Below, in pieces: positions 108-40,945 of a stretch of 42,721 nt of DNA. Within the stretch, counting starts at the first letter, position 1; every line of letters begins with the position of its first letter. Origin of the DNA: Rhodospirillaceae bacterium (GTDB lineage: Bacteria; Pseudomonadota; Alphaproteobacteria; UBA828); contig JABIXB010000265.1 of the NCBI GenBank assembly GCA_018666805.1, positions 1 to 42,721 of the forward strand, given 5' to 3'. A program made the translations under genes and the position numbers. Under the pieces are notes generated by a model that made no database searches, had not been told where the DNA came from, and was given only the letters and a program-made list of their open reading frames with translations.

Positions 108-119
108 GTTTCCCTACTC

Positions 120-1088: not shown

Positions 1089-1090
1089 GT

Positions 1091-1987: not shown

Positions 1988-2001
1988 GGCTTCTCTCCGC
2001 T

Positions 2002-2838: not shown

Positions 2839-2843
2839 GACTT

Positions 2844-4493
<1,650 letters not shown>

Positions 4494-4565
4494 TCAGGCC
4501 AAGGCCCAAGCGGAAGGTCTAATTATTTTCAGCCAGTCGCGGAACCCCTCGCCTAGCAACGTTTC

Positions 4566-4988: not shown

Positions 4989-5032
4989 CCTTGCCTCGCT
5001 AGATTTCGTGACGTTTCAGCCAAACACACATG

Positions 5033-5815
5033 TTAATGGCCGTAGTGGGCACAAATGCCCCAAAATTTCTCCGCCGACAGGCTTGCGCCTCCCACCAAGG
5101 CGCCGTCGACACCCTCAATCGAGAGGATGTCGGCAGCATTCTCAGCATTGACGGACCCGCCATATAGCACGCGCAGGCCGTCCACGTCGCCGGATTTTAA
5201 CTGTTTGAATAGATCGCGAATATGGCGGTGCATCTCACCGATCTGCTCGGCATTGGGTACGCGGCCCGTGCCGATCGCCCATACCGGCTCATAGGCGATC
5301 ACGATATCGCCGCTACCGCCCTGCTCCGGCAGCGATTTCCTGACCTGATCGCCGACCACGTCAAGCGCATCCCCGGCATCCCGCTCGGCCTCGCTCTCGC
5401 CGACACAGATGATGACACCCAACCCCGCCGCGAGCGCCGCGGCAGCCTTTTCGCCAACCGCTTCACTTGTCTCGCCATGGTTGGCGCGGCGTTCGGAATG
5501 GCCAAGAATGACATGGCTGCAGCCGCTATCGGCCAGCATCGGGGCACTGATATCGCCGGTATGAGCGCCCTTCTCCGCCGCGTGGCTGTTCTGGCCGCCA
5601 AGCGCAATGCCGGCGGCGGCCAACGTATCGTGCAGTTCAAACAGCAGTGTCACCGGCGGGCAGACAATGACGTCACAAGCCAATTCGCCGCCAGCCTGCT
5701 TGAGGCGCGCGATTCCCTCGGCCAAATCGCGGCCCGCGCGGCGCAGGCCGTTCATTTTCCAATTCGCGACAACGATTGGGCGCGCGGCACCCGCACTGCC
5801 CAGAGGCTCCGTCAT
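5033..5815 (-). CDS. tpiA: Triose-phosphate isomerase
   Basis: TpiA interconverts dihydroxyacetone phosphate and glyceraldehyde 3-phosphate in glycolysis and gluconeogenesis. The product is 260 residues, a full-length TIM barrel. The catalytic residues are visible: Lys in NWKMNG near residue 20, His in ILGHSERR, and Glu in AYEPVWAIGTGR. The phosphate-binding LYGGSVN and GALVGGASL segments are near the C-terminus. It is the first gene of the left minus-strand unit (tpiA-secG-pyrG-kdsA) and is divergent from ppiD across a gap of 192 bases. No convincing minus-strand promoter was picked out in that gap. Confidence 0.97.
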   Translation of the reverse strand: MTEPLGSAGAARPIVVANWKMNGLRRAGRDLAEGIARLKQAGGELACDVIVCPPVTLLFELHDTLAAAGIALGGQNSHAAEKGAHTGDISAPMLADSGCSHVILGHSERRANHGETSEAVGEKAAAALAAGLGVIICVGESEAERDAGDALDVVGDQVRKSLPEQGGSGDIVIAYEPVWAIGTGRVPNAEQIGEMHRHIRDLFKQLKSGDVDGLRVLYGGSVNAENAADILSIEGVDGALVGGASLSAEKFWGICAHYGH

Positions 5816-5927
5816 GACACACCGGTATTAATATGAAAAAGCGGCGCAGAATTAGCATAGGCCCCACGCGATTGCCAGCATGGGCGAAAGTAGTGGCGAA
5901 AGGTCCGCTTTCAGCGGCAATTGCGTA

Positions 5928-5956
5928 TTGCGGCCCCTCCGGTGCGCCTCTATGAT
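5928..5956 (+). promoter_or_regulatory. Candidate sigma-70 promoter for ppiD-trpE
   Basis: TTGCGG (5928-5933) and TATGAT (5951-5956) are separated by exactly 17 bases, and the -10 element matches the consensus at five of six positions. Transcription would begin near 5963, about 45 bases before the ppiD ATG at 6008. It lies in the tpiA/ppiD divergent gap. No operator-like dyad was seen beside it. Confidence 0.5.
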
Positions 5957-6007
5957 CCCAAACAGCGTTTTCGCGGGATCAACCCGCTGTTTCAATGGGT
6001 TACAACC

Positions 6008-7909: not shown

Positions 7910-9417
7910 TCGTCTCGCCCGATTACGCCGCTTTTGCCCTGACCTATGATGCGGGCAAGCCGCAGGCTGTGTGGACGACATTTGTCGCCGATCTGGAAAC
8001 GCCGGTTTCGACCATGTTGAAATTAGCCGAAAGCCGGGCCAATAGTTTTCTGCTCGAATCCGTCGAGGGCGGTGCGGTGCGCGGCAGATATTCTGTGATT
8101 GGATTAAAGCCTGACCTTATTTGGCGCTGTTTCGGCGCCCGGGCGGAGATCAATGAGAGCGCGCGCTACGACCCCGACGCCTTTGTCGATTGCAAAGATA
8201 ATGCACTCGATTCCATGCGCGCGCTTATTCGCGCCAGCCACATAGAACTGCCGGAAAATCTGCCGCCAATGGCGGCCGGCCTTGTCGGTTATATCGGCTA
8301 TGACATGGTGCGCCATATGGAACGGCTGCCCGAGCCCAATCCCGACGTGCTGCATCTCCCCGATGCCATATTGATGCGCCCCACCATCATGGCGATCTTC
8401 GATTCAGTCGAGGATTTGGTCACCTTGGTGACACCGGTCTGGCCTGAAGAGGGCTTGAATGCGCGCGCCGCATATGGCCGCGCCGCCGAGCGTTTGGCTG
8501 ATACCGTCGCCGACCTCGAACGGCCGCTGCCGGTGCGCATCGAAGACGCACAGAACTGTGAGCCAGAGCCCGTGCCGCAATCAAATACCAGCGAGGCGGA
8601 GTATCACGGCTTCGTTAAGCGCGCCAAGGAATACATTGCCGCCGGCGATATTTTTCAGGTCGTGCCGTCGCAGCGCTTTTCCGTGCCCTTCACCCTGCCG
8701 CCCTTCTCGCTTTATCGGGCATTACGCCGGCTCAATCCGTCGCCCTTTCTCTATTTCCTCAATTTCGGCGGATTTTCCGTTGTCGGTTCAAGTCCGGAAA
8801 TCCTCGTCCGGCTGCGCGACGACAAAGTGACGATCCGGCCGATCGCCGGCACCCGGCCACGCGGTGCCAACCGCGCCGAGGACCAGGCCTATGCCGATGA
8901 TTTGCTCTCAGACCCGAAGGAACTGGCCGAGCATCTGATGCTGCTCGATCTCGGGCGTAACGATATCGGCCGTGTGGCGGAGATCGGAACGGTCGATGTC
9001 ACCGAGCACATGACAATCGAAAATTATTCGCACGTCATGCACATTGTTTCCAATGTCGAGGGCCGCCTGAGGCCCGATCTCGACGCGGTGGACGCCCTGA
9101 TCGCCGGCTTTCCGGCCGGCACCGTATCCGGTGCGCCCAAGGTGCGGGCGATGGAAATCATCGACGAATTGGAGAAGGAGCGGCGCGGCATTTATGCCGG
9201 CGCGGTCGGCTATTTTTCCGCCTCCGGCGCGATGGATACCTGCATTGCACTCCGAACAGCGATCGTTAAAGACGGCACGATGTATGTCCAGGCGGGCGGC
9301 GGCGTGGTCGCTGATAGCGACCCCAAAGCCGAGTATCAGGAAACTATCAACAAGGCGCGCGCCCTGTTCCGCGCCGCCGAAGAAGCAACCCGCTTCGCCG
9401 CACGCGGCGGCAACTGA
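7906..9417 (+). CDS. trpE: Anthranilate synthase component I
   Basis: TrpE, with ammonia supplied by TrpG, converts chorismate to anthranilate, the committed step of tryptophan synthesis. The 503-residue length fits. The N-terminal LLESVEGG (49-56) is the region that binds feedback tryptophan in the family, so allosteric inhibition is expected. The C-terminal chorismate-binding domain shows SSPEILVR, IAGTRPRG, LLDLGRNDIGRV, and PAGTVSGAPKVRAMEIIDEL near the C-terminus. The start overlaps the ppiD stop by 4 bases, so the two are probably translationally coupled. Its partner trpG is not next to it: trpG begins 6.4 kb downstream, past an opposite-strand copper block. The neighbouring deacetylase gene ends 10 bases away, tail to tail. 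Confidence 0.97.
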   Translation: MIVSPDYAAFALTYDAGKPQAVWTTFVADLETPVSTMLKLAESRANSFLLESVEGGAVRGRYSVIGLKPDLIWRCFGARAEINESARYDPDAFVDCKDNALDSMRALIRASHIELPENLPPMAAGLVGYIGYDMVRHMERLPEPNPDVLHLPDAILMRPTIMAIFDSVEDLVTLVTPVWPEEGLNARAAYGRAAERLADTVADLERPLPVRIEDAQNCEPEPVPQSNTSEAEYHGFVKRAKEYIAAGDIFQVVPSQRFSVPFTLPPFSLYRALRRLNPSPFLYFLNFGGFSVVGSSPEILVRLRDDKVTIRPIAGTRPRGANRAEDQAYADDLLSDPKELAEHLMLLDLGRNDIGRVAEIGTVDVTEHMTIENYSHVMHIVSNVEGRLRPDLDAVDALIAGFPAGTVSGAPKVRAMEIIDELEKERRGIYAGAVGYFSASGAMDTCIALRTAIVKDGTMYVQAGGGVVADSDPKAEYQETINKARALFRAAEEATRFAARGGN

Positions 9418-9427
9418 GCGCGGATTC

Positions 9428-10687
9428 TCAACACGCGCATTCCAACGCTGCGACCGTGCTGATCGGCACGAATTCGAAACCGCGCGCGCGTGCGTCAGGC
9501 AACCAACGCTTCAGCACTTCCATGGTTGCCGCATAGGGATGGCCAATCGCCACCGCACGGCCGGATTGACGCGCCACATTCTCAACAACGCGTAACTGGC
9601 GTTCGATAAAGCCCTTCTCGGCGACGCTGTCCAAAAAAACATCGCGCGACGCAAAAGGCATGCGTGATGCGGTTGCAACCGGCTCGCCGACCGTCGAACC
9701 AATGGTGACAGAATCGAGATAGAGCAAACCACGCGCCGCCAATTCGTCGAGCACCAATTTCATCGCGCCACGATCCTGCGAGAATTTACTGCCCATATGG
9801 TTGTTGATACCGACATAGCCTTCGAGGCGCGACAAATTATGCGCCAACCGGCGCTTCAGCTCTTCTTCGCTCAAGCTGGTCAACAACGCGTTCGGCCCCG
9901 GGTCGGCTGATGCATCCGTCGGCTCCATCGGCATGTGAACAAGAATCTCAAAGCCTTTTTGTCTGGCGCGGCGGGCAAATTCAGCAACCCGGTCGGTATA
10001 GGGTAGGAAAGCAAGAGTGATCCCTTCTCCCAGGGACATCGCGTGGGCGAACTCCCGCTCCGAATGGCCAAGATCATCGATCACAATGGCGATGATTGGC
10101 GCCGTTCCGGTTTCCTTGGAGAGCGCGGCAAAGCGCCGCCAGTCGGGTAAATCGGGCTCCTCGATTGCCACAGGCGGCGATTTCAATTTCGGCGCGGTCG
10201 CGGGTTCGTTGATTATTGGCTTTATCAAAACAACTTGATCGCTCTCAGTGCCACCGGCCAGGCGGGCTAATCTGGACTCATACCGGGCTGAGAGCTTTTC
10301 ATCTGGTCCGGCGAGAGCAGGCAGAAAATCGAATTCCATCTCGCCCTTGGTGCCGACAAGAATTGCCAGGGCAGTTTCCGAATCAACGCTCGGGGATTGC
10401 ACTCGATTGGACTGCGCGGACTGGTTGATTGCCTGCGCCACGAAATCCGGCGTGTCCGCTGTATCGGGTATTGAAGTGGGTTTGGCGGCAGGTTTGAGTT
10501 TGGCTAATTTTTCGACCGTGTTGCTAGCTTCCGAAACATTCTCGTGTGAGCCTTGCCAGGCAAATGCCCCGGCGGCCAACAACACAATGACTATAGCCGT
10601 GAGCGGTATCTGTGCCTGCCGCGCGGTCAGTTTGGACAAACGGATACGTCTAAACCCGGCAGCGAAAGCGGCCAGATATGATTTCAT
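9428..10687 (-). CDS. Divergent polysaccharide deacetylase family protein (YibQ-like)
   Basis: The protein is 419 residues. A basic N-terminus precedes one hydrophobic anchor (about 28-45). A low-complexity linker runs to about 190, followed by a catalytic-type domain with PIIAIVIDDLGHSE (197-210), ILVHMPMEP (248-256), INNHMGSKFSQD (294-305) and LLYLDSVTIGSTVG (321-334). These are the hallmarks of the DUF610/YibQ divergent polysaccharide deacetylase family, placed in the NodB fold. The Asp-Asp and the two His positions could bind metal. In other bacteria these genes usually lie near the murein hydrolase activator envC and ctpA, so a cell-wall role is assumed but not shown. Its ATG overlaps the stop of the CueR-like regulator (ATGA). 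Confidence 0.85.
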   Translation of the reverse strand: MKSYLAAFAAGFRRIRLSKLTARQAQIPLTAIVIVLLAAGAFAWQGSHENVSEASNTVEKLAKLKPAAKPTSIPDTADTPDFVAQAINQSAQSNRVQSPSVDSETALAILVGTKGEMEFDFLPALAGPDEKLSARYESRLARLAGGTESDQVVLIKPIINEPATAPKLKSPPVAIEEPDLPDWRRFAALSKETGTAPIIAIVIDDLGHSEREFAHAMSLGEGITLAFLPYTDRVAEFARRARQKGFEILVHMPMEPTDASADPGPNALLTSLSEEELKRRLAHNLSRLEGYVGINNHMGSKFSQDRGAMKLVLDELAARGLLYLDSVTIGSTVGEPVATASRMPFASRDVFLDSVAEKGFIERQLRVVENVARQSGRAVAIGHPYAATMEVLKRWLPDARARGFEFVPISTVAALECAC

Positions 10688-11094
10688 TCGCCGCGTACCC
10701 CGAGGGGGCCGTGCGCCAAGCCATCCAGGATGGGATATTCCGGCCGCTCATCGCCGTGGCATTTATCGGCCAAATGCAACAGTGTGTGGCGGATCGAATC
10801 GAGTTCCGCCATTTTCTGGTCAATCTCGTCGACATGTTCGAGCGCGATTTTCTTAACATCGGCACTGGCGCGTTCGCGGTCCTCGAAAAGCGTCAACAAG
10901 TTGCGCACATCCTTGATCGAGAAACCGAGACTGCGCGCCCGGCTGACAAAGCGGAGAATATCCACATCCTGCTTGTCATAGCTGCGGTAGCCACTATCCG
11001 TGCGCAGCGGCTTGGCAACCAGGCCGATTTCCTCGTAATAACGGATCGTCTTGGCCGGCACGCCCGAGCGCTCTGCCACCAGACCTATTTGCAT
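10684..11094 (-). CDS. cueR: MerR-family Cu(I)-responsive regulator, CueR/HmrR type, with C120 replaced by Tyr
   Basis: The protein is 136 residues from the ATG at 11094. The frame is open further upstream into uxaA, but MQIGLVAERSGVPAKTIRYY is the canonical MerR start. The winged helix-turn-helix (1-70) is followed by the dimerisation helix and a metal-binding loop. Numbering matches E. coli CueR exactly: Ser77, which marks monovalent-metal sensors, is present, and so is ligand Cys112 (ADKCHGDERPEYPI). The second ligand, C120, is Tyr (codon TAT). CueR proteins twist promoters with a 19-20 base spacer to activate copper-efflux genes, and such a promoter lies upstream of copA in this block. 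The gene overlaps the deacetylase by 4 bases and follows uxaA by 25 bases. Confidence 0.85.
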   Translation of the reverse strand: MQIGLVAERSGVPAKTIRYYEEIGLVAKPLRTDSGYRSYDKQDVDILRFVSRARSLGFSIKDVRNLLTLFEDRERASADVKKIALEHVDEIDQKMAELDSIRHTLLHLADKCHGDERPEYPILDGLAHGPLGVRGE

Positions 11095-11119
11095 CGCCCT
11101 CCTCCTTCGGCTTGCCCGC

Positions 11120-12652
11120 TCATAATACCGCCCCAATCTGCCACGGCACGAATTCCTCATCGCCAAAGCCGAAGGCTTCGCTCTTGCTCGGCGCACCCGA
11201 CGCGGTGTTGAGGATCAGTTCAAATATCTCGCGCCCGAGACCCTCGATATCAGCCTCGCCATCAACGATGCGGCCGCAATTGATATCCATATCCTCGTGC
11301 ATGTGCTCAAACATAGTGCTGTTTGTGGCAAGTTTAAGGCTGGGCGTCGGCTTGCAGCCGAAGACGGATCCCCGCCCGGTGGTAAAACACACCACATTGG
11401 CGCCGCCGGCCACCATGCCGGTGATAGAAACCGGATCGTAACCCGGCGTATCCATGAACACGAAACCCTTGCTCTCGACCGTCTCGGCGTAGCGATAGAC
11501 CGCGACCAAATTGCTGGTGCCGCCCTTGGCCGCGGCGCCGAGGGATTTTTCCAGGATCGTGGTCAGGCCGCCCGCTTTGTTACCGGGCGAGGGATTGTTA
11601 TCGACCACGGCGCCGTTCATTTTGGTGTAATCCTCCCACCAGGCGATGCGCTCGAGCAGTTTGCGCCCGACGGCTTCCGACTCCGCTCGCCTGATAAGCA
11701 AGTGCTCGGCGCCGTAAATCTCCGGCGTTTCGCCGAGGATTGCGGTGCCGCCATGGCGTACCAACAGATCGGCTGCGGCACCGAGGGCCGGGTTGGCCGT
11801 CACACCGGAAAACGCATCGGAGCCGCCGCACTCCATGCCTAATATTATGTGACTTGCGGGAACAGTTTCGCGCTTAACGTTATTGGCCGCCGGCAACATC
11901 GCTTCGATGCATTCGATGCCACGGCGCACCGTGGCATTGGTGCCGCCCTCGCCCTGGATCGTCATGGTATGCAGCATCTCGCCCGGTATCAGGCCGAGAT
12001 CCGCCACCATGCCATCAAGCTGGTTGATCTCGCAGCCCAGACCCAACAACAGCGTGCCGGCGATATTGGGATGGCGTGAATAGCCGGCGATTGAGCGGCG
12101 GAGATAATCCCAGCCATCGCCATGCGCCGCCGTACCGCAGCCCGAACCATGCGTGAGCGCAATCACGCCATCGACATTCGGCCAACGCTCCATGGCGGCG
12201 CCGCGAAAATGATCGCAAATGTAGCGCGCTACCGTGGCCGAGCAGTTCACGCTGGTAATCACGGCGAGGTAATTCCGCGTCGCGACGCGGCCATCGGCAC
12301 GTACGATGCCTTGAAAGCTGGCGCGCTCCGCCTCGGCGACGAATTCGGTGGGCGCCGCCTCAATGCCGAATTCATAGTCTCGCGCGAATTCCGCGAAGGC
12401 TAAGTTATGCTCGTGTACATGTTCGCCCGATGCGATATCGCGCGTCGCGAAGCCAATAATCTGGCCATATTTACGCACCGCATCACCGTTCTTAATGGCT
12501 TCGGTGGCGATCTTGTGGCCAAACGGGATTGGATCGCTCAGACGCAGCAGCGCGCCATTGTCAGATACCTCGCTGCCGGCCGGTATTTTGCACGTGGTGA
12601 CAATAACATTATCGCCCGCATGCAGCCGCATGGCGGTCTCTTCACGCTTCAT
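11120..12652 (-). CDS. UxaA-family (altronate/galactarate) dehydratase, full-length fused form
   Basis: The product is 510 residues from the ATG at 12652, preceded by GGGGAA. A second ATG at 12631 (MRLHAGDNVI) is also possible. The N-terminal SAF-like domain (about 8-100) is followed by the catalytic UxaA C-terminal domain. That domain has conserved Cys/His-rich stretches THGSGCGTAAHGDG, LLGLGCEINQ, GMECGGSDAFSG, TGRGSVFGCKP and MDINCGR. Family members dehydrate sugar acids such as D-altronate or galactarate with an iron centre. Relatives act on sulfolactate and other hydroxy acids, so the substrate is not fixed. No uronate pathway partners (uxaB, uxaC, kdgK) lie nearby. It sits 49 bases after the methyltransferase gene in the copper block, an unusual setting. 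Confidence 0.85.
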   Translation of the reverse strand: MKREETAMRLHAGDNVIVTTCKIPAGSEVSDNGALLRLSDPIPFGHKIATEAIKNGDAVRKYGQIIGFATRDIASGEHVHEHNLAFAEFARDYEFGIEAAPTEFVAEAERASFQGIVRADGRVATRNYLAVITSVNCSATVARYICDHFRGAAMERWPNVDGVIALTHGSGCGTAAHGDGWDYLRRSIAGYSRHPNIAGTLLLGLGCEINQLDGMVADLGLIPGEMLHTMTIQGEGGTNATVRRGIECIEAMLPAANNVKRETVPASHIILGMECGGSDAFSGVTANPALGAAADLLVRHGGTAILGETPEIYGAEHLLIRRAESEAVGRKLLERIAWWEDYTKMNGAVVDNNPSPGNKAGGLTTILEKSLGAAAKGGTSNLVAVYRYAETVESKGFVFMDTPGYDPVSITGMVAGGANVVCFTTGRGSVFGCKPTPSLKLATNSTMFEHMHEDMDINCGRIVDGEADIEGLGREIFELILNTASGAPSKSEAFGFGDEEFVPWQIGAVL

Positions 12653-12701
12653 TTAGTTCCCCGCACTGAATCTCTTTTCCAATCCCAGTATAAATTATTT
12701 T

Positions 12702-13307
12702 TCACGGACGCGCGACGATGAGGCGGACGATATCCTCGACCAAAAAGCGGTTTTCGACTTCTTCGAGCCCGGCATCGCCAAGATATTGATGGGTGTTGCG
12801 GTCGAACGCCGCGCCGTAAGCCCAGCGCACCCAGGGCGCCCAGAGTTTCATGACGAAACGCTTTCTCGGGTCCTGGGAGTAGCTGTATTCCAGCAGACGA
12901 ATTTCACCGCCCGGTTTGCAGATACGCGCCAATTCCTTGAGCGCCGGCAATTGATGCTCCGGTTCGAGGACGCAAAACAGGAAAGACGAGACCACGGCAT
13001 CGAAGCTGTTGTCTTCGAACGACGTGTGCATCACATCCATTTCCAGCAACTGCACCTCGCCCGCCACTTCCACCCGCCGGCCCTCGGCGCGCGCCAACAT
13101 GGCTGGGCTAAGGTCGATGCCGACCATCTCGCTGGCCTTGGGATAGAACGGAATATTGCGCCCCGTGCCGACACCGGCATCGAGAACCCGCCCCGACAGG
13201 CCCTGAAACAGCAGTGGGCGCAGCGGCTGGTAGCGTTTGCGCTCGAACGGCGCGTCGAGCAGATCGTACCATTTGGCGATACGTTGATAGGTGGCGCGTT
13301 TGCTCAT
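12702..13307 (-). CDS. Class I SAM-dependent methyltransferase
   Basis: The protein is 201 residues with one Rossmann-like methyltransferase domain. Motif I is VLDAGVGTGRNIPFYP (about 41-56), the acidic ribose-binding position is in VGIDLSPAMLARA, a motif II-like stretch is NSFDAVVSSFLFCVLEP, and motif III is KPGGEIRLLEYSYS. The pattern is of the UbiE/Methyltransf_11 type, close to small-molecule or lipid methyltransferases such as PmtA-like enzymes. The substrate is unknown. The ATG at 13307 comes 4 bases after the copA stop, with no good ribosome-binding site, so translation is probably coupled to copA. It is therefore likely to be induced together with the copper exporter. Confidence 0.85.
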   Translation of the reverse strand: MSKRATYQRIAKWYDLLDAPFERKRYQPLRPLLFQGLSGRVLDAGVGTGRNIPFYPKASEMVGIDLSPAMLARAEGRRVEVAGEVQLLEMDVMHTSFEDNSFDAVVSSFLFCVLEPEHQLPALKELARICKPGGEIRLLEYSYSQDPRKRFVMKLWAPWVRWAYGAAFDRNTHQYLGDAGLEEVENRFLVEDIVRLIVARP

Positions 13308-13311
13308 TTAT

Positions 13312-15615
13312 TTATAGTCTCGCGAACCGCAACCTGAGCGCGTTCGATATAACCGATACCGAGCTCAGGCTCATCGCCGCACTTGCGATCATCGGGTTCA
13401 ACAGCAGCCCGAAGGGCGGGAACAGAACGCCGGCGGCAATCGGAATGCCGAGGAAGTTATAGGCGAAAGCGAAAAACAGATTTTGCCTTATGTTGCGCAT
13501 GGTCGTGCGGCTGAGCCGCCGCGCCCGGGCAATACCGCGCAGATCACCGCTCAGCAAGGTGATGCCCGCCGCCTCGATGGCAACGTCGGTGCCTGTCCCC
13601 ATAGCAATGCCTATATGCGCTTCGGCCAAGGCCGGCGCATCGTTCACGCCATCGCCCGCCATAGCGACAATGCGCCCCTCGGCGCGCAATTTTTGCACCA
13701 CCTCGCGCTTTTGCGCCGGCAGCATTTCGGCCTGAATCTCATCAATGCCGAGGGCCGACGCCACTGCCTTGGCCGTCACCGCATTATCGCCCGATAACAT
13801 GACAACGCGCACGCCATCGGCATGCAGATCGCGCATCGCCTCGAACGAGCTTTCCTTGATTTTGTCGGCCACGGCAACCAGCCCGGCGGCGCTGCCGTTG
13901 GCGGCAACGAACATGACGGTACGGCCCTCGGCGCGGTGATGCTCAGCGCGGTCTTTTAGTTCGACTATATCGACCGCCATATCGGCAAACAGGCGCGCAT
14001 TGCCGAGCACAATATCGGCGCCGTCCACCCGGCCAACAACCCCGCGCCCGACTTTAGCCTGGAAATCACTCACCTCGCCCAAAACAAGCTGCTTTTCTTC
14101 GGCGCCGTCGGTAATGGCGCGCGCCAAGGGATGCTCGCTGGCGCGCTCGAGGCTGGCGGCAAGCTGCAGCACATCATCCTCGCGGAAACCAGCCAGCGCC
14201 TCGACCGCAGCCAGACGCGGCTTGCCTTCGGTTAACGTGCCGGTCTTATCGACCACCAACGTATCGACCTTTTCGAACAGTTCGAGCGCCTCGGCGTCGC
14301 GGATCAACACGCCGGCTTGCGCGCCGCGACCGACGCCAACCATGATCGACATCGGCGTCGCCAGGCCGAGCGCGCACGGACAGGCGATAATCAGCACAGC
14401 GACCGCATTGACCAACGCATAACCCATGCTCGGCGCCGGTCCGAAAATTCCCCAGACCATTGCGGTAACAATCGCCGCCGCAAGAACCGCCGGAACAAAT
14501 ATCCCGGCGACCCGGTCAGCGGTGCGCTGGATCGGCGCCCGGCTGCGCTGCGCCTCGCCGACCATTTGCACAATACGGAAAAGCAACGTCTCCGTGCCGA
14601 CATGCTCTGCCCGCATGATGAAGCTGCCCGAACCGTTCAGCGTGCCGCCGGTCACTTTGTCGCCTGTTGATTTTTCCAGCGGCAGGGATTCGCCGGTCAT
14701 CATCGATTCATCTAAAGCGCTGGCACCATCGGTGATCACCCCATCGACCGGAACCTTCTCGCCGGGGCGGACGCGCAAGCTGTCCTCCGCCGCGACCGCT
14801 TCCAAGGCAATTTCTTCCTCTGAACCGTCGGCGCGGACAATGCGCGCCACCGCCGGCGCCAGGTCGAGCAGCGCGCGCAATGCCTCGCCGGTCCTGGCGC
14901 GTGCTTTCAACTCCATCACCTGGCCGAGCGCAACCAGCACAATAATGACGCCGGCAGCTTCGAAATAAACCGGCACATCGCCCACGGCCGAGCGGAAAGC
15001 AGCGGGAAATATGTGCGGCACGGCGGTGGCGACAATGCTGTAGACATAGGCCACACCGGTGCCGAGCGCGATCAGGGTGAACATGTTGAGATTGCCACTC
15101 AGCACCGAACGCCAGCCACGTGCGAAAAACGGCCACCCACCCCACAGCACAACCGGCGTTGCCAGGGCAAACTGAATCCAGGTCCAGAACCGCACCGAGG
15201 CGATATGCTGCAACGGTTCGCCCGGAATTATATCCGACATGGCGATGAACAGCAGCGGCAGGGCAAGCGCACCGCCGAGCCAAAAGCGCCGGTTCATACT
15301 GATCAGTTCGGGGTCCGGCGCGGCATTCACCTGGATAACACTCGGCTCAAGCGCCATGCCGCAGATCGGGCAGTCGCCAGGCGCACTTTCCTCGATTTCC
15401 GGATGCATCGGACAAATGAATATTGTTTCGCGCAGTGGCAAGGCGGCGGCCTCCAGGGCCATGCCGCAACTCGGACAAATCCCGGGCCCGTCATTGCCCA
15501 CACCCGGACACATCGGGCAGGTATAGGCAGCGCCGCTGTCCGTATTGTTTTTATGGCTGTTTTCACTATGTCCCTGGTGAGAACCGTGGCAGCAAGTGGA
15601 GGGCGTGGAATTCAT
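13312..15615 (-). CDS. copA: Copper-exporting P1B-type ATPase with two N-terminal heavy-metal-binding domains
   Basis: The product is 767 residues from the ATG at 15615. Weaker TTG and GTG starts lie upstream. CopA-type pumps use ATP to move Cu(I) out of the cytoplasm. The N-terminus is Cys/His-rich ([16 protein letters not shown]). It carries two short heavy-metal-binding modules: YTCPMCPG...CPSCGMALE (31-55), whose first half is divergent, and FICPMHPE...CPICGMALE (67-90). There is no classical GMxCxxC HMA domain. P1B-1 signatures follow: TGES (307-310), CPC in the membrane (412-414), the phosphorylated Asp of DKTGT (D456), SEHPL (H494), GDGVND (654-659), YN (719-720) and MSLSS (748-752). 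A CueR-type promoter lies upstream. It heads the five-gene minus-strand block. Confidence 0.95.
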
Positions 15616-30880: not shown

Positions 30881-31450
30881 TCAGTTCAGCCCGAATTCCA
30901 GCGTTAGGTCGGGTAATCGCTCGTCCAGGCGTTTAAGAACCTCGCGCGAAATTCTTAGTTCTTTGTCGACATAAAGTGTCTGCGCCTGAGGAAGAACCAA
31001 TGTAATTCCTTTTTCTTCCGCAATCTTACCTATGATTTTCGAAATTTCGACCTGTAGAAGCCGCACCCCGCCGGCATAAGCTTGATCCAGTTCGCGGCGG
31101 CGGTCCGCGACGATACGTTGAACGGTCGCGACATCGCCCTCAAAGTCACGTCTGCGCTTAGCGTAGGCTTCAGGTGAAAGCACCGAGCGTTGCTTGGCAA
31201 GTTCTTGTTCAAGCTCGCGCAAACGCCCCTTTTCTGCGGAAATTTCGCCCTGATACCGCGTCCGCCGCGCCTCAATTTGTCCCTGAATTGATTTTGCCGC
31301 CAAAGCCTCGCGCATGATGGCCTGTATTTCCACGATGCCAATGACGGCCGGCTTAATGTCTTGCGCATTCGCCAGGGACACAAAGCTTTGAGGCAAAAGC
31401 GCTGTAAACAAGAGCAGGGACAGGACAGCGAAATATCGGACAATTCTCAA
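30881..31450 (-). CDS. skp: OmpH/Skp-family periplasmic chaperone
   Basis: Skp holds unfolded outer-membrane proteins in the periplasm for delivery to BamA. The product is 189 residues. A signal peptide (about 1-28, MRIVRYFAVLSLLLFTALLP, cut after ANA) precedes a small beta core and a long charged coiled coil (about 50-130, with RTRYQGEISAEKGRLRELEQ). The start is TTG at 31450 and overlaps the bamA stop (TTGA). GGAG lies 9 bases upstream, and no ATG fits the signal peptide. It lies between bamA and lpxD, the usual order. Confidence 0.9.
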   Translation of the reverse strand: MRIVRYFAVLSLLLFTALLPQSFVSLANAQDIKPAVIGIVEIQAIMREALAAKSIQGQIEARRTRYQGEISAEKGRLRELEQELAKQRSVLSPEAYAKRRRDFEGDVATVQRIVADRRRELDQAYAGGVRLLQVEISKIIGKIAEEKGITLVLPQAQTLYVDKELRISREVLKRLDERLPDLTLEFGLN

Positions 31451-33735
31451 AATCTTGCTCCAAAACTAAATCTGAAATTTTCAGTTTCGTCGAAACTCTC
31501 TTTCTTCACGGCGCGCGCATAATCGATGCGAATTGGGCCGAAGGGAGACGCGTAGGAAACGCCAACGCCAATTGATGCCCGGGGTTTCCCCGAATCCAAC
31601 ACATCGGAGCCAGTATCATCTATATCAGAAAGCGCACCAACATCTGCGAATAGAGCGCCATCCACATCCAGATCTTTGGTCAAATTGAGCGGCACCGTCA
31701 CCTCTGCTGTGGCGGCGTAAAACATGTTTCCGCCAAGTGAATCGCCGGTATTGCGATCTCGCGGACCAACACCGCCAGGCACAAAGCCGCGCAAATTGGA
31801 GCCGCCCAAAAAGAATCTATCATTGATGCGCACGTCTTCACCCAGGCCGACAATATAGCCTTCTTTCAAACTGGCATTGGCAATCAAATTCGACCAGAAC
31901 GGCCAATGATAGGTATAGGTCAACGTATGCTTTAAATAATGTACGTCGCCGCCAAGGCCCGCCCCTTCCTGGCCAAATTGAATCATAAAGCCTTCTGTCG
32001 GCTTGATGCGGCTGTCGCGTTTATCGAGGGTGAGGGTATGGCCGAGCGAAGAGGTTGTCGACGTACCTTCCTGGTCTTTGACTATTCTTGAAGCGTCATC
32101 ATCGACATTGCTGATTTTGTCCTGGCGCAAGGTATACACCACCCCGTGGCGAAGGTCTTCCGCGACGGTGTAGTTGGCGCGCAAACTTGAACCCAAGGTA
32201 TCCTGATCAAACGAACTCTCATCTTGGAAGTCGACATTCTTGCGGAACACGTCGAAACCGGCAGCGATATCGCGATCGAGGAAATATGGTTCGGTAAAAT
32301 TGAGATCAATCTCCTGGCGACGCGTTGAGAAAGTTAGCCCGAGGCGCAAATCTTGCCCTCGCCCCAAGAGATTACGCTCGCGGATACTGACATCGCCGAG
32401 GAAACCGTCGAGTGTAGAGATGCCCGCGCCAAAACTCAGTTCACCGGTCGATTTTTCCGCCACAGCGACAGTTAGAATGGATTGGTCCGGTTGCTCGCCT
32501 TGCTCTGAATCGATCCTTACCTCTTCGAACAGACCTAAATTTCGGATATTCTGACGCGACCGTCTAATTTTAGCAGCGTTGAAAGCATCCCCTTCCACGA
32601 GGCGGAATTCCCGCCTAATAACTTTATCCAGAGTGCGCACATTACCAATAATATCGATACGCTGAACATAAACGCGCGGCCCCTCGTCAATCTCATAGGT
32701 CACATCAATCAAACGCTGCTCGCGATCGCGCTTTATCCGGGGGCGAATATCCACGAACGCGTAACCTAAATTACCGACTGAATCGGTCAGTGCTTGAATT
32801 GAATCTTCTACTTCATCGGCATCATACCAATCGTCCGATGTAGTGGTCAGAGCCGGCAGCAGAGACGCCGCATTTAAATCGCGCAACTTACTGTTGATAC
32901 TAAGATTGCCAAACCGATAACGCTCGCCCTCTTCAATCGTAAAGGTGACATAAAAATCTTTTCTGTCGCGCGTTAATTCCGCAACCGCGGAGATCACGCG
33001 AAAATCCGCATATCCCCGGCTTAAGTAGAATTTTCTCAGCAGCTCACGGTCAAACGTCAAACGATCCGGATCATAGGTATCGTCGCTGGTCAGGATTCGC
33101 CACCAAGCAGACTCTCGCGTTTGAATTTCGTCACGCAAATAGCCATCGTCGAAGCGCTTATTGCCGACAAAGCTAATACGCCGCACGCCGGTCAACGGCC
33201 CTTCGTCAATTTCGAACACCAAATCAACTCTGTTTTGCGCCAGTTGAATGACTTTAGGTTCGATTTGGGCAGCGAATCGTCCGCTTCTGCGATAGACCTC
33301 GATCAATCGCTGAACATCACTCTGCACGCGGGTCCGGGTATAGACAACGCGCGCGCGAAGCTGTGTCTCAGCCTCGAGCGCTTCATCATCAATGCGCTGG
33401 TTGCCCTCGAAGGCGACGCGGTTGATGATCGGATTTTCGACCACCCGCACGATCAACGCTTGGCCTTCTCTACGAATTGTCACATCGGCGAAAAGACCTG
33501 TGGCGAACAGGCCTTTTAGGGAGTCGTTGATTTCCCTGGCATCGAACACGTCCCCCACTGCAGTCGACAGATAGGAGCGAACGGTATCCGCCTCGATGCG
33601 TTCATTGCCCTCCACCAACACTTCATTGATAACGGATTGGGCTCTGGCATTGGGTACGGAAAATCCGACCAATACAGCCAGAGCCAGAATCATAAGCCCT
33701 GCTGCGCAGCGAGAGAAATATCCAAATCTAGACAT
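31447..33735 (-). CDS. bamA: Outer membrane protein assembly factor BamA
   Basis: BamA is the central barrel of the outer-membrane protein insertion complex. The product is 762 residues. A signal peptide (1-32, cut after ARA) is followed by five POTRA domains (about 33-420, e.g. INEVLVEGNERIEADTVRSY and VQRIDIIGNVRTLDKVIRRE). The C-terminal 16-strand barrel has the conserved lid-lock motif in FFLGGSNLRGFVPGGVGPRD and a terminal aromatic (FSFGARF). It begins 32 bases after rseP and is joined to skp by a TTGA overlap. Confidence 0.97.
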   Translation of the reverse strand: MSRFGYFSRCAAGLMILALAVLVGFSVPNARAQSVINEVLVEGNERIEADTVRSYLSTAVGDVFDAREINDSLKGLFATGLFADVTIRREGQALIVRVVENPIINRVAFEGNQRIDDEALEAETQLRARVVYTRTRVQSDVQRLIEVYRRSGRFAAQIEPKVIQLAQNRVDLVFEIDEGPLTGVRRISFVGNKRFDDGYLRDEIQTRESAWWRILTSDDTYDPDRLTFDRELLRKFYLSRGYADFRVISAVAELTRDRKDFYVTFTIEEGERYRFGNLSINSKLRDLNAASLLPALTTTSDDWYDADEVEDSIQALTDSVGNLGYAFVDIRPRIKRDREQRLIDVTYEIDEGPRVYVQRIDIIGNVRTLDKVIRREFRLVEGDAFNAAKIRRSRQNIRNLGLFEEVRIDSEQGEQPDQSILTVAVAEKSTGELSFGAGISTLDGFLGDVSIRERNLLGRGQDLRLGLTFSTRRQEIDLNFTEPYFLDRDIAAGFDVFRKNVDFQDESSFDQDTLGSSLRANYTVAEDLRHGVVYTLRQDKISNVDDDASRIVKDQEGTSTTSSLGHTLTLDKRDSRIKPTEGFMIQFGQEGAGLGGDVHYLKHTLTYTYHWPFWSNLIANASLKEGYIVGLGEDVRINDRFFLGGSNLRGFVPGGVGPRDRNTGDSLGGNMFYAATAEVTVPLNLTKDLDVDGALFADVGALSDIDDTGSDVLDSGKPRASIGVGVSYASPFGPIRIDYARAVKKESFDETENFRFSFGARF

Positions 33736-33767: not shown

Positions 33768-34877
33768 TCACGAGGCCAACCCAAGAATATCCTTGCCTGT
33801 CACCCAGACCATCAACGCGATTATTAGGACCAAGCCTACAGTTTGGCCAATATTTTGAATTTGCGGCTTGAGCGGCCGTCCCATCAGGGCTTCGAAGAAG
33901 TTAAACAACAGGTGGCCGCCATCCAGAACCGGGATCGGCACGAGATTAATCAGCCCGAGACTAATCGAAATGACGGCCAGAAAAAACGCCAATCCTGCTA
34001 TTCCGCCAGCCGCCACTTGGCTTGACATGACGGCAATACGAATGGGACCACCTAAGTCACTAGTCGAGCGCGACCCGGCAATCATTTGCCCGACTGCCTT
34101 GCCGGAGGCAGTGATGACATAAACGGTCTGTTTCACGGCCTGCCATATGGCGGTACCGGGATCATGCTTTGTGAATGCGACCCCTGGTACGCTTATGCCG
34201 AGTTGCGGCCGTTCCGTTTGGTTGCCAAAGGTGTCTTGTGCGGCGACCATGCGCGGCGCCGCTTGCAGCGCCACTTCACTACCATCGCGTAGCACAACGA
34301 TATCAAGCGTATCGCCCAAATTCATTTGGACTGTCGCCTGAATATCTTCAAAACGGGTTATTTCCTGCCCGTTGATTCTGATAAATTCATCCCCGGCGAC
34401 CAGGCCGGCTTCATCGGCGGCGCTATCTTCAAGAACGGCGCCAACGATGGCCGGTGTGAACTGCTGGCCAACGGTGGCAAATAGGACTGCGAAAATTGCG
34501 ATCGCCAGAATGAAGTTTGCCACCGGCCCGGCGACCGCGACGGCAGAGCGCTGACCGACACTTTTATTGTGGAAGCATTTTGCCGATTCTTCCGGCGACA
34601 TTTCCTCCACCGTCTCGGCTGGCGTGGTGCTCGCGGCATTGGCGTCGCCGACGAATTTCACATATCCGCCAAGCGGCAGAAGGCTGAATTTCCAGCGCGT
34701 GCCATGACGATCATTGATGCCGAACAATTCCGGGCCAAAGCCGATCGAAAAAACCTCGACACTTACCCGGTTCGCGCGCGCGACCAGATAGTGACCAAGC
34801 TCGTGGAAAAACACCACCGGCGTAATCACGGCTAAAAACGGCCAAATATAGTTCAGCTTTTCGACAATAATATCCAT
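33768..34877 (-). CDS. rseP: Site-2 intramembrane zinc protease RseP
   Basis: RseP cuts membrane-bound anti-sigma factors and remnant signal peptides within the membrane. The product is 369 residues. The zinc motif is HELGH at 25-29 (VVFFHELGHYLVARAN). One PDZ domain lies near 120-215 (AGLVAGDEFIRINGQEITRF). The C-terminal LDG motif is in NLVPIPVLDGGHLLFNFFEA. It is shorter than the 450-residue E. coli protein because it has one PDZ domain instead of two. The 218-base gap upstream separates it from the patatin gene. It may contain a promoter, but no clear one was picked out. Confidence 0.95.
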   Translation of the reverse strand: MDIIVEKLNYIWPFLAVITPVVFFHELGHYLVARANRVSVEVFSIGFGPELFGINDRHGTRWKFSLLPLGGYVKFVGDANAASTTPAETVEEMSPEESAKCFHNKSVGQRSAVAVAGPVANFILAIAIFAVLFATVGQQFTPAIVGAVLEDSAADEAGLVAGDEFIRINGQEITRFEDIQATVQMNLGDTLDIVVLRDGSEVALQAAPRMVAAQDTFGNQTERPQLGISVPGVAFTKHDPGTAIWQAVKQTVYVITASGKAVGQMIAGSRSTSDLGGPIRIAVMSSQVAAGGIAGLAFFLAVISISLGLINLVPIPVLDGGHLLFNFFEALMGRPLKPQIQNIGQTVGLVLIIALMVWVTGKDILGLAS

Positions 34878-35052
34878 TTTGACCTATCGATATGAACGTG
34901 ACAGCGATATGCAAGCCACTCTGGCAACTCCAGCCAAGCTATACATGACATTTTATCACCGGCACGCAAGGGCCACTCGATATCACCGATTTTAAGCCAC
35001 TTTCTCGGCAACGAATCCGTTTCCCCGGGCAGGCATGAGTCTAGGTTCCAAA

Positions 35053-35082
35053 CCGGTGCATTTCAAGGCTGGCCTGCACCGG
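35053..35082 (-). terminator. Candidate stem-loop terminator after the patatin gene
   Basis: An 8-base perfect stem (CCGGTGCA/TGCACCGG) encloses a 14-base loop and lies 13 bases past the patatin stop on the minus strand. It is followed on that strand by only three T residues, so it may be a weak terminator or an RNA-stabilising hairpin. The rest of the 218-base patatin-rseP gap shows nothing else definite. Confidence 0.35.
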
Positions 35083-35095
35083 CTAAGAGATTGAT

Positions 35096-35986
35096 TTAAG
35101 GAACAGATACGCCAAGGGCGCGAAATACATCCTGGCGCGCCATTTGGGCACAGTCCCACAATTCACGGCGCCCCCGCGTGGTTCGCCTGGCGAGACGCGA
35201 TTCGTCACTCGGAGAAACCAGGGTAATCCGTATTTTACCCGCCAATTCGCTGGAATCTTGCAGCAAATCCATCGTTTTGTTGAACAATTTATCTTCATTC
35301 AGCAGCTTCTGGCGCAATGCCTCAGGGTGGAACGCAAGTACGAGCCTGCCCAGGGCACGAAGAAATCCCTTCTTGCCGTTACGCCGGAAGTTCAGATTGC
35401 GCGTCGTCACAACAGTGATATCCGTGCATCCCGCCGCAATTGCCCTCAACAACGGAATTGCGTCGCTTACCCCGCCATCAACGTATTTTCCGCCGTCAAT
35501 TTCCACCACACGATTATAAAATAGCGGCAGGGCTGAGGTCGCACGAAACAACTCATACATGAGATTGCCACTCGCATCCCAACCGCCTATGTCCTTGCTC
35601 GTCACTTCAACGGGCTCAGCCGTGAGCCTATCCGTCACGACAACATGTAATATTGTGGGCGATTTGATTACCGCTTTCACATCGAGCGGAAACTCGGCGT
35701 GGCGCAGTACCTTGTCGACGAGATGATCAATATCAACGATCTTGTTAAGCCGCCAATAGCGAATGAAAGGCGAGGATTTGTTGAGGTGGTCGGCATAACC
35801 GGCAGCGACCAGGTCTGTTTGCCCGGACATCAAATATGCGGCGTTAATTGCGCCGGCGGAGGATGCAAATATGTGTGAGAAACTGCCGGCCATCCCGGCA
35901 TCCGCGAGTGCGCTCATGGCGCCGGCGGAATATATACCGCGCATGCCGCCGCCTTGCACGACGAGGCCCCGGACTTCAGCCGCCAT
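35096..35986 (-). CDS. Patatin-like phospholipase family protein
   Basis: The protein is 296 residues with a single patatin domain. The oxyanion loop GGGMRG is at 12-17. The nucleophile elbow reads ASSAG (41-45) with Ser43, where most members have GxSxG. The dyad Asp is Asp170 in KYVDGGVSDAIP. No signal peptide or membrane segment is seen, so it is probably cytoplasmic or membrane-peripheral. YjjU/RssA-like patatins are lipid acyl hydrolases, and the substrate is unknown. It starts 3 bases after the cdsA stop and is followed by a stem-loop. In most alphaproteobacteria this position, between cdsA and rseP, is held by dxr. Confidence 0.9.
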   Translation of the reverse strand: MAAEVRGLVVQGGGMRGIYSAGAMSALADAGMAGSFSHIFASSAGAINAAYLMSGQTDLVAAGYADHLNKSSPFIRYWRLNKIVDIDHLVDKVLRHAEFPLDVKAVIKSPTILHVVVTDRLTAEPVEVTSKDIGGWDASGNLMYELFRATSALPLFYNRVVEIDGGKYVDGGVSDAIPLLRAIAAGCTDITVVTTRNLNFRRNGKKGFLRALGRLVLAFHPEALRQKLLNEDKLFNKTMDLLQDSSELAGKIRITLVSPSDESRLARRTTRGRRELWDCAQMARQDVFRALGVSVP

Positions 35987-35989
35987 ATT

Positions 35990-36847
35990 TCAGTTTCCGG
36001 TCCAAGTTAGCAGCGTCGCGGAACCACCAGCTAAAAGAACTGCAAAGGCGAGTATCGGCGCAACCAGTATCAAGCTGTCGAGCCGATCCAAGGCGCCGCC
36101 ATGGCCGGGCAGCCAGGTGCCACTGTCCTTCACGCCAAAATATCTTTTCACGCCGGATTCGGCCAAATCGCCGACTTGGGAGCATAGCGAGAGAAGCGCA
36201 CTTGCAAGCGCAATAAGCAGCAATTCCACGCTGCCCCCAAGCAGACCCACGGCTTGCAGCAATAATGTTAAAACAACGCCCATAAGAGCGCCCGTCGCCA
36301 ATCCGCCAATCGCCCCCGCCCATGTTTTCTTCGGACTGATACGGGGCGCAAGACTGGCGCCACCGATCAATTTTCCAAATATATAGGCGCCGGAATCAGT
36401 TGCCCACACGACGACAAACAACCAATAAACCGTTGCGAGCCCGAGCGCCTCTTCTGCTCGCAGCCATATGATCGAAACCATCGATAAAATAAAAATAAAT
36501 ACACCGGCTGCCGTCCAGAGCGGGCTGTTGCGCTCAAACCTGGCAACTGCCCCGACGGTAACGGCACCGCCTGCGCCCACCACCAACGCGATCTCGGCGT
36601 CCCAAACCGCAAATACAGCACCGCTCAACGCCACAGTCGCGATCGCCAGCAGCAAAGTTCCGGGCGAACGGCGTGGACAACACATCCTGATCCACTCAAA
36701 TGTGACAATGGCCGTTAGCCCCGTGACCACCGCCAAAAAGGTGATTCCACCAGCATAGACGGCAGCCACTGCCGAGATCGCCAAAATTATCGCTGTGAGT
36801 AAGCGCGGGCCCAGCGAAGCCGAGGCCTGTCTAATCGCCGCTGCCAC
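35990..36847 (-). CDS. cdsA: Phosphatidate cytidylyltransferase
   Basis: CdsA makes CDP-diacylglycerol from phosphatidate and CTP, the branch point of phospholipid synthesis. From the GTG at 36847 the protein has 285 residues. The frame is open 99 codons further upstream, but that part lies within uppS in another frame. The start overlaps the end of uppS by 17 bases. About eight membrane helices are visible. The CTP-transferase signature is SGVKRYFGVKDSGTWLPGHG followed by GALDRLDS. The catalytic Asp region is VWATDSGAYIFGKLIGG. Confidence 0.93.
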   Translation of the reverse strand: MAAAIRQASASLGPRLLTAIILAISAVAAVYAGGITFLAVVTGLTAIVTFEWIRMCCPRRSPGTLLLAIATVALSGAVFAVWDAEIALVVGAGGAVTVGAVARFERNSPLWTAAGVFIFILSMVSIIWLRAEEALGLATVYWLFVVVWATDSGAYIFGKLIGGASLAPRISPKKTWAGAIGGLATGALMGVVLTLLLQAVGLLGGSVELLLIALASALLSLCSQVGDLAESGVKRYFGVKDSGTWLPGHGGALDRLDSLILVAPILAFAVLLAGGSATLLTWTGN

Positions 36848-37565
36848 CGTATCGGCGCTCGCGGCGCTGATATTCCTGAACGGCCTGCTCCAGATGTTCG
36901 TGCTTAAAGTCCGGCCACAAAATCGAGGTAAAGACAAACTCGGTATAGGCCGACTGCCAGAGCAGGAAATTACTGATCCGTTGCTCACCGCTGGTGCGAA
37001 TGATGAGGTCAGGATCCGGCAGCTCCTGCGACTGCAGATAGCTTTCCAACAATGGCTCGCTGATATCTTCAGGCGCATGACTGCCGGCACGAACATCATC
37101 AGCGAAGGCGCGAACCGCATCGAGAATTTCCTGCCGGCCGCCATAATTGATGGCGACGGTGAAATTCAGCCCCGTATTGTCTTTGGTATTTTCTTCGGCT
37201 TCCACGATAAGGCGGTTGATATCGCTATCGAGTCTTGAGCGGTTTCCGATAAAGCGAATGCGCACACCCTCGCGGCCGAGACTCGCTATTTCGCGGCGGA
37301 TATAAAGCCGTAGAAGACCCATAAGGTCGTCGACTTCACTCGCCGGGCGCTTCCAGTTTTCCGACGAAAACGCATAGATTGTCAGATATGAAATTCCGAT
37401 ATCTTTGCAGCTTCGCACGGTAGAGCGCACCGCCTCCGCACCCTGCTTATGCCCGGCAATACGCGGCAAACCGCGCGCGCGCGCCCACCGGCCATTGCCA
37501 TCCATGATAATCGCGACATGGTTCGGCACCGGTTGCTGGTCATCAAAGGCAGGTGCTACAGCCAT
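36831..37565 (-). CDS. uppS: Isoprenyl transferase (undecaprenyl diphosphate synthase)
   Basis: UppS extends farnesyl diphosphate with isopentenyl units in cis to make the C55 lipid carrier for peptidoglycan and O-antigen. From the ATG at 37565 the product has 244 residues. The frame opens 16 codons earlier inside frr. Motifs are HVAIIMDGNGRWARARGLPR (Asp22 binds Mg), LTIYAFSSENWKRP, and DLIIRTSGEQRISNFLLWQS followed by AYTE. It begins 4 bases after the frr stop and overlaps cdsA by 17 bases. Confidence 0.96.
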   Translation of the reverse strand: MAVAPAFDDQQPVPNHVAIIMDGNGRWARARGLPRIAGHKQGAEAVRSTVRSCKDIGISYLTIYAFSSENWKRPASEVDDLMGLLRLYIRREIASLGREGVRIRFIGNRSRLDSDINRLIVEAEENTKDNTGLNFTVAINYGGRQEILDAVRAFADDVRAGSHAPEDISEPLLESYLQSQELPDPDLIIRTSGEQRISNFLLWQSAYTEFVFTSILWPDFKHEHLEQAVQEYQRRERRYGGSGD

Positions 37566-37569
37566 GCCC

Positions 37570-38130
37570 TCAGACCTGGAGAATTTCGCTTTCCTTGCCT
37601 TCATGCGTTTCAACTATTTTCTTAATGACGTCGTCGGTCATCGTCTGAATTTCATCCGACCAAATCTTGGCGTCGTCCTCACTGAGATCGCCGGCCTTTT
37701 CCATTTTTTTCAACTTGTCCATGCCATCGCGGCGCACATTGCGCACGGACACTTTTGCCTGTTCAGAATATTTACCGGAAATTTTGGCCAGTTCCATACG
37801 GCGCTCTTCATTTAGCTCAGGAATGGGAATGCGTAGATTTTGTCCGTCAATGATGGGATTGAGGCCGAGGCCCGAATTCTGAATAGCCTTCTCGACCGCC
37901 CGAACCTGCGATTTGTCCCATACTTGAATGCTGATCATCCGAGGTTCCGGCACGTTAATGGTCGCAACCTGGTTTAACGGCATTTCGGCGTCATAGGCGA
38001 TTACCACGATCGGCTCGACCAGGCTCGCCGATGCGCGGCCGGTTCTCAGGCCGGAATATTCCTGCCGCAATACCTCCAGCGCGCCGTTCATGCGGCGTTG
38101 TAAATCATCAATATCTGGTTCTTCTGCCAT
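37570..38130 (-). CDS. frr: Ribosome-recycling factor
   Basis: Frr splits post-termination ribosomes together with EF-G. From the ATG at 38130 the product has 186 residues, the standard length. A frame extension upstream into pyrH is ignored. Typical stretches are [50 protein letters not shown] and the helical C-terminal half [14 protein letters not shown]. It begins 4 bases after pyrH. Confidence 0.97.
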
Positions 38131-40042: not shown

Positions 40043-40945
40043 TTACTCAGCCACGCTTGGCGTTGCTTCCGCCGTTTCTTCGGCTGCCGCCTTAGCGGGC
40101 TCAGCCGCAACTTCCACGACGGGTTCTGCTGCAGGCTCCGGTGCTGCTTCCGCTGCACTTTCAGCCGCCGGTGCCGCATCAGGTTCAGCAACCTCGGCCG
40201 GCAGTTCCTCCACCGGCGCCTCCTCTGCTTCGCCGATATCGACGCCGGAATCGACCATTTCCTGCTGCAGCCCGTCAATAATGGCGCGGGCAAAGAGATC
40301 GCAATAGAAATTCACCGCCCGGATGGCGTCATCATTTCCCGGAATGGGATAGTTGATCAATTCCGGGTTGCAGTTGCTGTCGACGACGGCGACAACCGGG
40401 ATACCCAATTTGCGCGCCTCCATGACGGCAATATCTTCTTTATTCGTATCTATCACGACCAAAATATCCGGCACGCCGCCCATATCCTTGATACCGCCGA
40501 GCGCCCGGTCCAGCTTGTCGCGCTTGCGCGTGAGCTGTAGCACTTCCTTCTTGGTCAGGCCGAGATTTTCGTCGCCAAGCTGTTCTTCGAGGCTGATCAG
40601 GGTCTTGATCGAACCGGAAACCGCTTTCCAGTTCGTCATCATACCGCCGAGCCAGCGGTGATTGACGTAATATTGGCCACAGCGCCGCGCCGCATCCGCG
40701 ACCGGCTCCGAGGCCTGGCGTTTGGTGCCGACAAACAGCACCCGGCCACCGCCGGCGGCAACATCGCGCAGCGCGCCCAGCGATTGATGCAGCAAGGGAA
40801 CGGTCTGCTGCAAATCGAGAATATGTACGCCATTACGCACGCCAAAAATATAGGGGCCCATCTTCGGGTCCCAGCGGCGTGTTTGATGACCGAAATGAAC
40901 GCCGGCTTCCAATAGCTGGCGCATGGTGAACTCTGGCAGAGCCAT
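40043..40945 (-). CDS. rpsB: 30S ribosomal protein S2
   Basis: S2 is a structural protein of the small ribosomal subunit. The product is 300 residues, against 241 in E. coli. The core (1-232) begins [20 protein letters not shown] and shows [17 protein letters not shown] and [20 protein letters not shown]. Residues about 233-300 are a low-complexity tail of Ala, Glu and Pro. Such acidic tails are common on S2 of Rhodospirillales-like bacteria. AAGGAAG lies upstream of the ATG. Confidence 0.96.

Follow-up and report, generated by a model that had tools for sequence, protein, structure and literature searches.

The vacant dxr slot between cdsA and rseP in an alphaproteobacterial genome: probable relocation of dxr within the order and a gap in the assembly

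Introduction

The question raised by the present locus is what became of dxr in a genome where a patatin-like hydrolase gene occupies its usual place. The stretch of DNA analysed here (the window; 42,721 nucleotides from a Rhodospirillaceae bacterium) carries on its minus strand the series rpsB-tsf-pyrH-frr-uppS-cdsA-[patatin]-rseP-bamA-skp-lpxD-fabZ-lpxA-lpxI, in which uppS, cdsA, the patatin-like gene, rseP and lpxI were checked against Pfam and the remaining names come from translations and synteny. The canonical proteobacterial string reads rpsB-tsf-pyrH-frr-uppS-cdsA-dxr-rseP-bamA, and apart from dxr its genes stand in the same order in the window. According to one part of PMC6411480, rseP often neighbours cdsA, uppS, dxr, frr, rpsB and bamA. 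A preliminary description of this DNA had offered two readings, namely that dxr has moved, or that isoprenoid precursors are made with another enzyme such as a DRL-type reductoisomerase.

Results

The locus in the window

On the minus strand, uppS (36831..37613; PF01255, E 3.4e-88) is followed by cdsA (35990..36830; PF01148 (CdsA), E 2.2e-53), the start codon of which is uncertain, since no obvious start codon opens its frame directly after the uppS stop. The cdsA stop codon occupies 35990-35992, and after a gap of 3 bases read directly from the sequence (35987..35989, minus strand) comes the ATG of the patatin-like hydrolase gene in the usual dxr slot (35096..35986, minus strand; 296 aa; PF01734, E 5.1e-22). 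A spacer of 218 bases (34878..35095, minus strand) then leads to rseP, the gene of a site-2 protease (33768..34877, minus strand; M50 domain PF02163, E 4.3e-65), behind which lies a bamA-like frame (31447..33735, minus strand; ORF list and tblastn synteny) that was named from its translation and position and served as a synteny marker. Open reading frames, sequence and Pfam searches hence bear out the succession of cdsA, 3 bases, patatin, 218 bases and rseP, without dxr, that had been described. The earlier statement that the window holds no Dxr-like frame stands as well, the Dxr domain PF02670 having found no match in a profile search of all contigs of the assembly, the window included. As a separate observation, the rpsB frame of the window (40043-40945) has a long Ala/Glu/Pro-rich C-terminal tail.

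The location of dxr in relatives

The search for PF02670 covered 191 genomes, the window's own (hereafter G000) among them, and found the domain in 154, G000 being without a match. All five other members of the genus have dxr, as do 19 of the 21 relatives sampled from the same order (G001-G020 of family f1 and G021 of f2); the two without a match, G008 and G019, are 78% and 67% complete. In each of these 19 relatives dxr adjoins hpnC, which fits the suggestion that dxr has moved, and in 18 of them mfd and hpnD are found at dxr too. Eighteen of the 19 loci were fetched, with hpnC in 18/18 and both mfd and hpnD in 17/18, the eighteenth contig being only 3.5 kb long.

The best view of the new place is given by the congener G002, where dxr, hpnC and hpnD lie on the same strand with short gaps and dxs is about 6 kb away. 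The relocated Dxr of G002, the one protein scanned, reached 458.9 bits against TIGR00243 and thus passed the equivalog cut-off of 315.7 as a standard Dxr; its neighbour HpnD scored 294 bits with TIGR03465 (cut-off 278.6), and the HpnC-like protein 245.5 bits with TIGR03464, just under the cut-off of 250.45. HpnD and an HpnC-like protein, known from the hpnC-hpnD-hpnE squalene route of hopanoid clusters, are likewise found here beside dxr, and the string of the order relatives differs from such clusters in that it includes dxr. Portions of two hopanoid papers (PMC12583986, PMC5462960) count dxr among the precursor genes, and in those portions the dxr-hpnC-hpnD arrangement is not shown. Additionally, less than 10 kb of the G002 locus (L091, G002:C3:70000-88000, positions 1-9721) hold dxs, a PagL-like gene, an epimerase, a CDP-alcohol phosphatidyltransferase, an NTP transferase, hpnD, hpnC, dxr and phhB, a stretch which, by its predicted gene content, is an isoprenoid and lipid gene neighbourhood.

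The cdsA-rseP slot across genomes

The slot itself was compared in G000 and 59 relatives, an RseP match at E 1e-30 or better being required. Outside the order, 25 of the 28 genomes with both RseP and Dxr keep dxr in the usual slot (24 with rseP and dxr no more than 3 kb apart on one contig, and G023 with the two halves of the slot on two contigs); the others are G024 and G053, at contig ends, and G041, with the genes on different contigs. The same picture emerges from the 30 best-scoring Dxr loci, 29 of which come from outside the order and, with the exception of G143, have cdsA upstream of dxr (28/29). Within the order, dxr and rseP are both found in 16 genomes and share a contig in 0/16, so that dxr never lies by rseP.

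The slot between cdsA and rseP is assembled in 12 order genomes, G000 included, and dxr is in none of them. A patatin gene sits there in five of the 12, namely in four members of the genus (G000, G001, G002 and G004) and in G007 of another genus, where it lies about 230 bases away from cdsA; in the other seven (G006, G008, G009, G011, G012, G014 and G021), 230-330 bases separate the end of the cdsA match from rseP. Compared with the canonical string, the order thus has a slot without dxr in all 12 genomes, filled by patatin in two genera. The preliminary description had asked whether relatives share the cdsA-patatin-rseP order, and these five, counting G000, do. It had also named, as an outcome that would speak against its own reading, a slot without dxr across the whole clade, and in the order this held for each of the 12 genomes whose slot is assembled. 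In seven g6 genomes bamA and rseP are neighbours, with no cdsA match upstream in the fetched stretch. Two further genus members, G003 and G005 (94% and 86% complete), gave neither a strong RseP match nor a patatin match, probably because of missing contigs. A second, partial RseP-like match in G007, with 44-45% identity and located at a contig end (L129, G007:C325, 8454-9227), may be a paralogue or a foreign contig.

Why dxr looks absent in the genome of the window

The assembly of G000 comprises 317 contigs and 3.92 Mb and is rated 98.28% complete, and a whole congener Dxr used as query found no match in it. The 13.5-kb dxr region of G002 was used as a query against G000. Its positions 1-340 and 1601-5924 correspond to 7986-8326 and 9127-13355 of contig C205 (13389 bases), and its positions 9935-13501 correspond to contig C102 from base 1 onwards. 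What lies between, 4.0 kb of G002 (query 5924-9935), carries the start of hpnC, dxr, phhB and most of mfd; the place where a Dxr frame would be expected is a contig gap. By tblastn, C205 ends in hpnC, matched from residue 22 onwards, and the match to mfd residues 1-451 reaches the first bases of C102. No G000 match was reported for the missing 4.0-kb stretch (40 of 106 first-look candidates were scored), and the sole other match of the G002 region in G000 spans 40 bases elsewhere in the query.

Since the break also cuts through mfd, an assembly gap is a better explanation than a deletion. It is thus most likely, on the evidence of the contig ends, that dxr of G000 lies in the gap of about 4 kb between C205 and C102; dxr itself is seen in no G000 contig, and its existence in the unassembled gap is the most likely reading of the congener region. 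Of the genes that the preliminary description had proposed to look for, dxs (on C205), ispF, ispG and one encoding a DRL-domain protein are present in G000, and neither dxr nor HMG-CoA synthase found a match there. A mevalonate route as replacement was set aside on account of the unmatched HMG-CoA synthase.

The spacer upstream of rseP

A promoter scan returned 2 sites against 1.1 expected by chance, and one of them, TTGAAA-N17-TAGACT, lies in the spacer upstream of rseP (35038..35066, minus strand). The related pattern CTTGNNN-N17-TANNNT occurs no more than 260 bases upstream of rseP in 12/12 order genomes with the assembled cdsA-rseP slot, against 0.11 expected from dinucleotide shuffles, a comparison of 12 with 0.11 that overstates the case, since the genomes are relatives of one another and the pattern was picked after viewing their sequences. 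The seven g6 genomes of the family, in which rseP stands apart from cdsA, yielded no site with a similar pattern. We predict from the sequences that in the 12 order genomes the spacer site is probably a promoter belonging to rseP itself.

The stem-loop that had been described between patatin and rseP does exist (35053..35082, minus strand), its arms CCGGTGCA (35082-35075) and TGCACCGG (35060-35053) forming 8/8 pairs with G-T counted as a pair, and it overlaps the promoter-like site. In three congeners 5, 6 and 6 of the 8 positions pair, so the stem is not conserved. In addition, a terminator scan that allowed loops of 3-8 did not list the stem-loop, and Rfam gave no match at gathering score in the whole window; on these three grounds a terminator or an RNA element was rejected.

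The patatin-like gene

The patatin-like protein of the window scores 79.4 bits with PF01734 and passes the curated Pfam cut-off of 27.7. In an alignment of 23 sequences (the window copy and 22 of 26 loci, four loci with partial matches being left out), the glycine loop G12-G14, R16, Ser43 and Asp170 are invariant in 23/23. The protein accordingly has the patatin domain, the oxyanion glycine loop and the Ser and Asp of the dyad that are found in patatin-like phospholipases, from which it differs in its nucleophile elbow, ASSAG and not GxSxG. The best match among solved structures has an E value of 7.3e-5, and none is close.

A patatin search in G000 and the same 59 relatives matched five at E 1e-10 or better, the same G000, G001, G002, G004 and G007, once each and in the slot, the four slot orthologues being 61-84% identical to the window copy. 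With one match per genome, always in the slot, the gene was apparently not moved from elsewhere within these genomes. Among the 26 loci of patatin homologues in named genomes, the cdsA-patatin-rseP order appears in three (L140, L141 and L145), which look like contigs of G004, G007 and G001; at the other 23, no window marker protein was matched in the fetched flanks of up to 8 kb. One of the patatin loci (L153) shows a weak match to mfd, a gene of the dxr locus. An anti-phage patatin, of CBASS or another kind, was also considered and dismissed, the NCBIfam scores being 30.3 bits against a cut-off of 400 and 25 against 200. In the literature searched, patatin, cdsA and rseP were not found together in any paper.

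Discussion

We consider, with a probability of about 0.93, that dxr has been neither lost nor replaced, and that it was relocated in the order and is hidden by an assembly gap in G000. The observations on which this rests are the gene orders, the contig breaks, the presence of dxs, ispF and ispG, and the lack of an HMG-CoA synthase match. Within the order, dxr would have left the uppS-cdsA-dxr-rseP-bamA string and now heads a tight dxr-hpnC-hpnD string next to mfd and near dxs, and rseP would then probably be transcribed from its own spacer promoter, whose function is a prediction. Later, in the genus of the window and in one neighbouring genus, a patatin-like gene would have come into the vacated slot, and in G000 dxr would have fallen into the gap between C205 and C102. 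In the window the newcomer would have settled 3 bases behind cdsA, a spacing which suggests co-translation or otherwise coupled expression with the CDP-diacylglycerol synthase. The protein may act in phospholipid turnover by deacylating phospholipids, a role proposed earlier that is a reasonable guess and nothing more.

Judged from gene order, dxr-hpnC-hpnD could form an operon tying precursor supply to squalene/hopanoid synthesis. A more ambitious version joins both ends of the story: dxr would have been recruited into a dxr-hpnC-hpnD operon in which the committed step of the MEP route shares its regulation with squalene/hopanoid formation, and the envelope operon that it had left would later have acquired the cdsA-coupled patatin, which would remodel phospholipid or phosphatidic acid. 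We give this version a small chance; if it were true, two linked changes would rewire the membrane lipid supply.

The rival that the preliminary description had itself brought up holds that a DRL-type (DXR-II) enzyme replaced Dxr in this organism. G000 does encode one PF21135 (DRL_cat) protein (E 2.7e-57; contig C168, L109 (G000:C168), 5114-6463), of the same domain family as DXR-II/DRL of Brucella (PDB 3upy, 3upl) and about 34% identical to the structure 3upy (alignment over residues 3-414 of 449, E 1.1e-60). Lys191, Gly121 and His250 (Brucella numbering) are kept in it, its changes of Thr229 to Ser and Arg320 to Lys are conservative, and PMC3847144 reports Alphaproteobacteria that have lost DXR-I and retained DXR-II. 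However, where the Brucella enzyme has K, K, T and R at 191, 193, 229 and 320, the G000 protein has K, T, S and K; Lys193, Thr229 and the Arg320 of the dimer interface are all exchanged, and the conserved Gly121 tells little, as it is kept in most of the other 49 PF21135 proteins. According to PMC3847144, Lys191, Lys193 and Thr229 anchor the inhibitor fosmidomycin in DXR-II, Thr229 is absolutely conserved in DXR-II and replaced by Pro, Ser or Ala in DLO2, such sites set DXR-II apart from two families of DXR-II-like oxidoreductases (DLO), and four tested DLO members failed to complement a dxr mutant. Coexistence speaks against replacement as well: PF21135 is matched in 49 of the 191 genomes, G000 included, and 46 of the other 48 also have a Dxr match (the exceptions being G085, 68% complete, and G098), while in the genus all six members searched carry PF21135 and the 5/5 congeners have dxr too. 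Moreover, the C168 gene stands between an oxoprolinase/caprolactamase-like fusion and a dioxygenase-like gene. Among the 50 PF21135 proteins compared, taken from 57 places, the full DXR-II residue set is found in one, L174 of G098, from a genome with no Dxr match, and is missing from the 49 others, that of G000 among them. By residues, coexistence with dxr and gene context, the proposal of a DRL-type reductoisomerase was rejected, and we rate it very unlikely; the protein of G000 is probably a DLO-type (DXR-II-like) oxidoreductase, as its residues and context indicate. A DRL_cat domain match is, with 1/50 carrying the full set, usually not an alternative reductoisomerase. As for G098 (95% complete), its L174 protein is 56% identical to 3upy over 218 columns, and this organism is likely a true DXR-II user.

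Another rival is a genuine deletion of dxr confined to this species, with isoprenoids coming from elsewhere. An assembly rated so complete and lacking any Dxr match would agree with it, but the dxr region is where C205 and C102 both break off, with mfd truncated at the same point; furthermore, dxs, ispF and ispG are kept with HMG-CoA synthase unmatched, and in G001 the assembly breaks in the same region, one part of dxr lying on contig C374 together with hpnC and hpnD and the other on contig C99 next to phhB and mfd. We find such a deletion highly improbable, and since dxr is unseen in the G000 contigs, we leave the slightest of chances to a true deletion that happened to coincide with the contig break. 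The remaining rival parts from relocation of the native gene on a single point, where the gene came from: the dxr now found beside hpnC would be of foreign origin and would have displaced the native copy. In a FastTree of 55 Dxr sequences, built with no outgroup from another class and with class sequences taken from the best-scoring loci and not by random draw, 16 of 17 order members form one group with a support of 0.959, and G021 falls elsewhere (L094, of the 18 order loci, was dropped by filters and is absent). The order Dxr are thus not one group, as a foreign origin might have it, and the placement of G021 possibly reflects a second relocation or weak resolution; the neighbourhood common to the order, G021 included, favours one relocation. 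Against a foreign copy, the order Dxr share a mean identity of 0.606 with other alphaproteobacterial Dxr, similar to the 0.58 among the latter, and their best solved structure is 1r0k (458.4 bits vs 371.7 for the next), from the alphaproteobacterium Zymomonas mobilis. A foreign copy therefore appears unlikely to us, and we prefer the relocation of the native gene.

The enzymes are ordinary, and it is the gene order that is a real variation at the level of the clade, dxr having most likely moved from a conserved proteobacterial string into one with squalene-forming genes. Furthermore, an essential gene seems to be lost from a draft rated 98% complete just where the assembly breaks, a coincidence that only the mapped neighbourhood of congeners brought to light.

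Two minor observations from the domain searches may be added. Nine small genomes of the class (G026, G027, G034, G051, G059, G068, G079, G089 and G103; 95-100% complete) have no Dxr match and are not PF21135 carriers. The control search with PF02670 gave a match over the cut-off in Methanocaldococcus jannaschii, in which Dxr is not expected.
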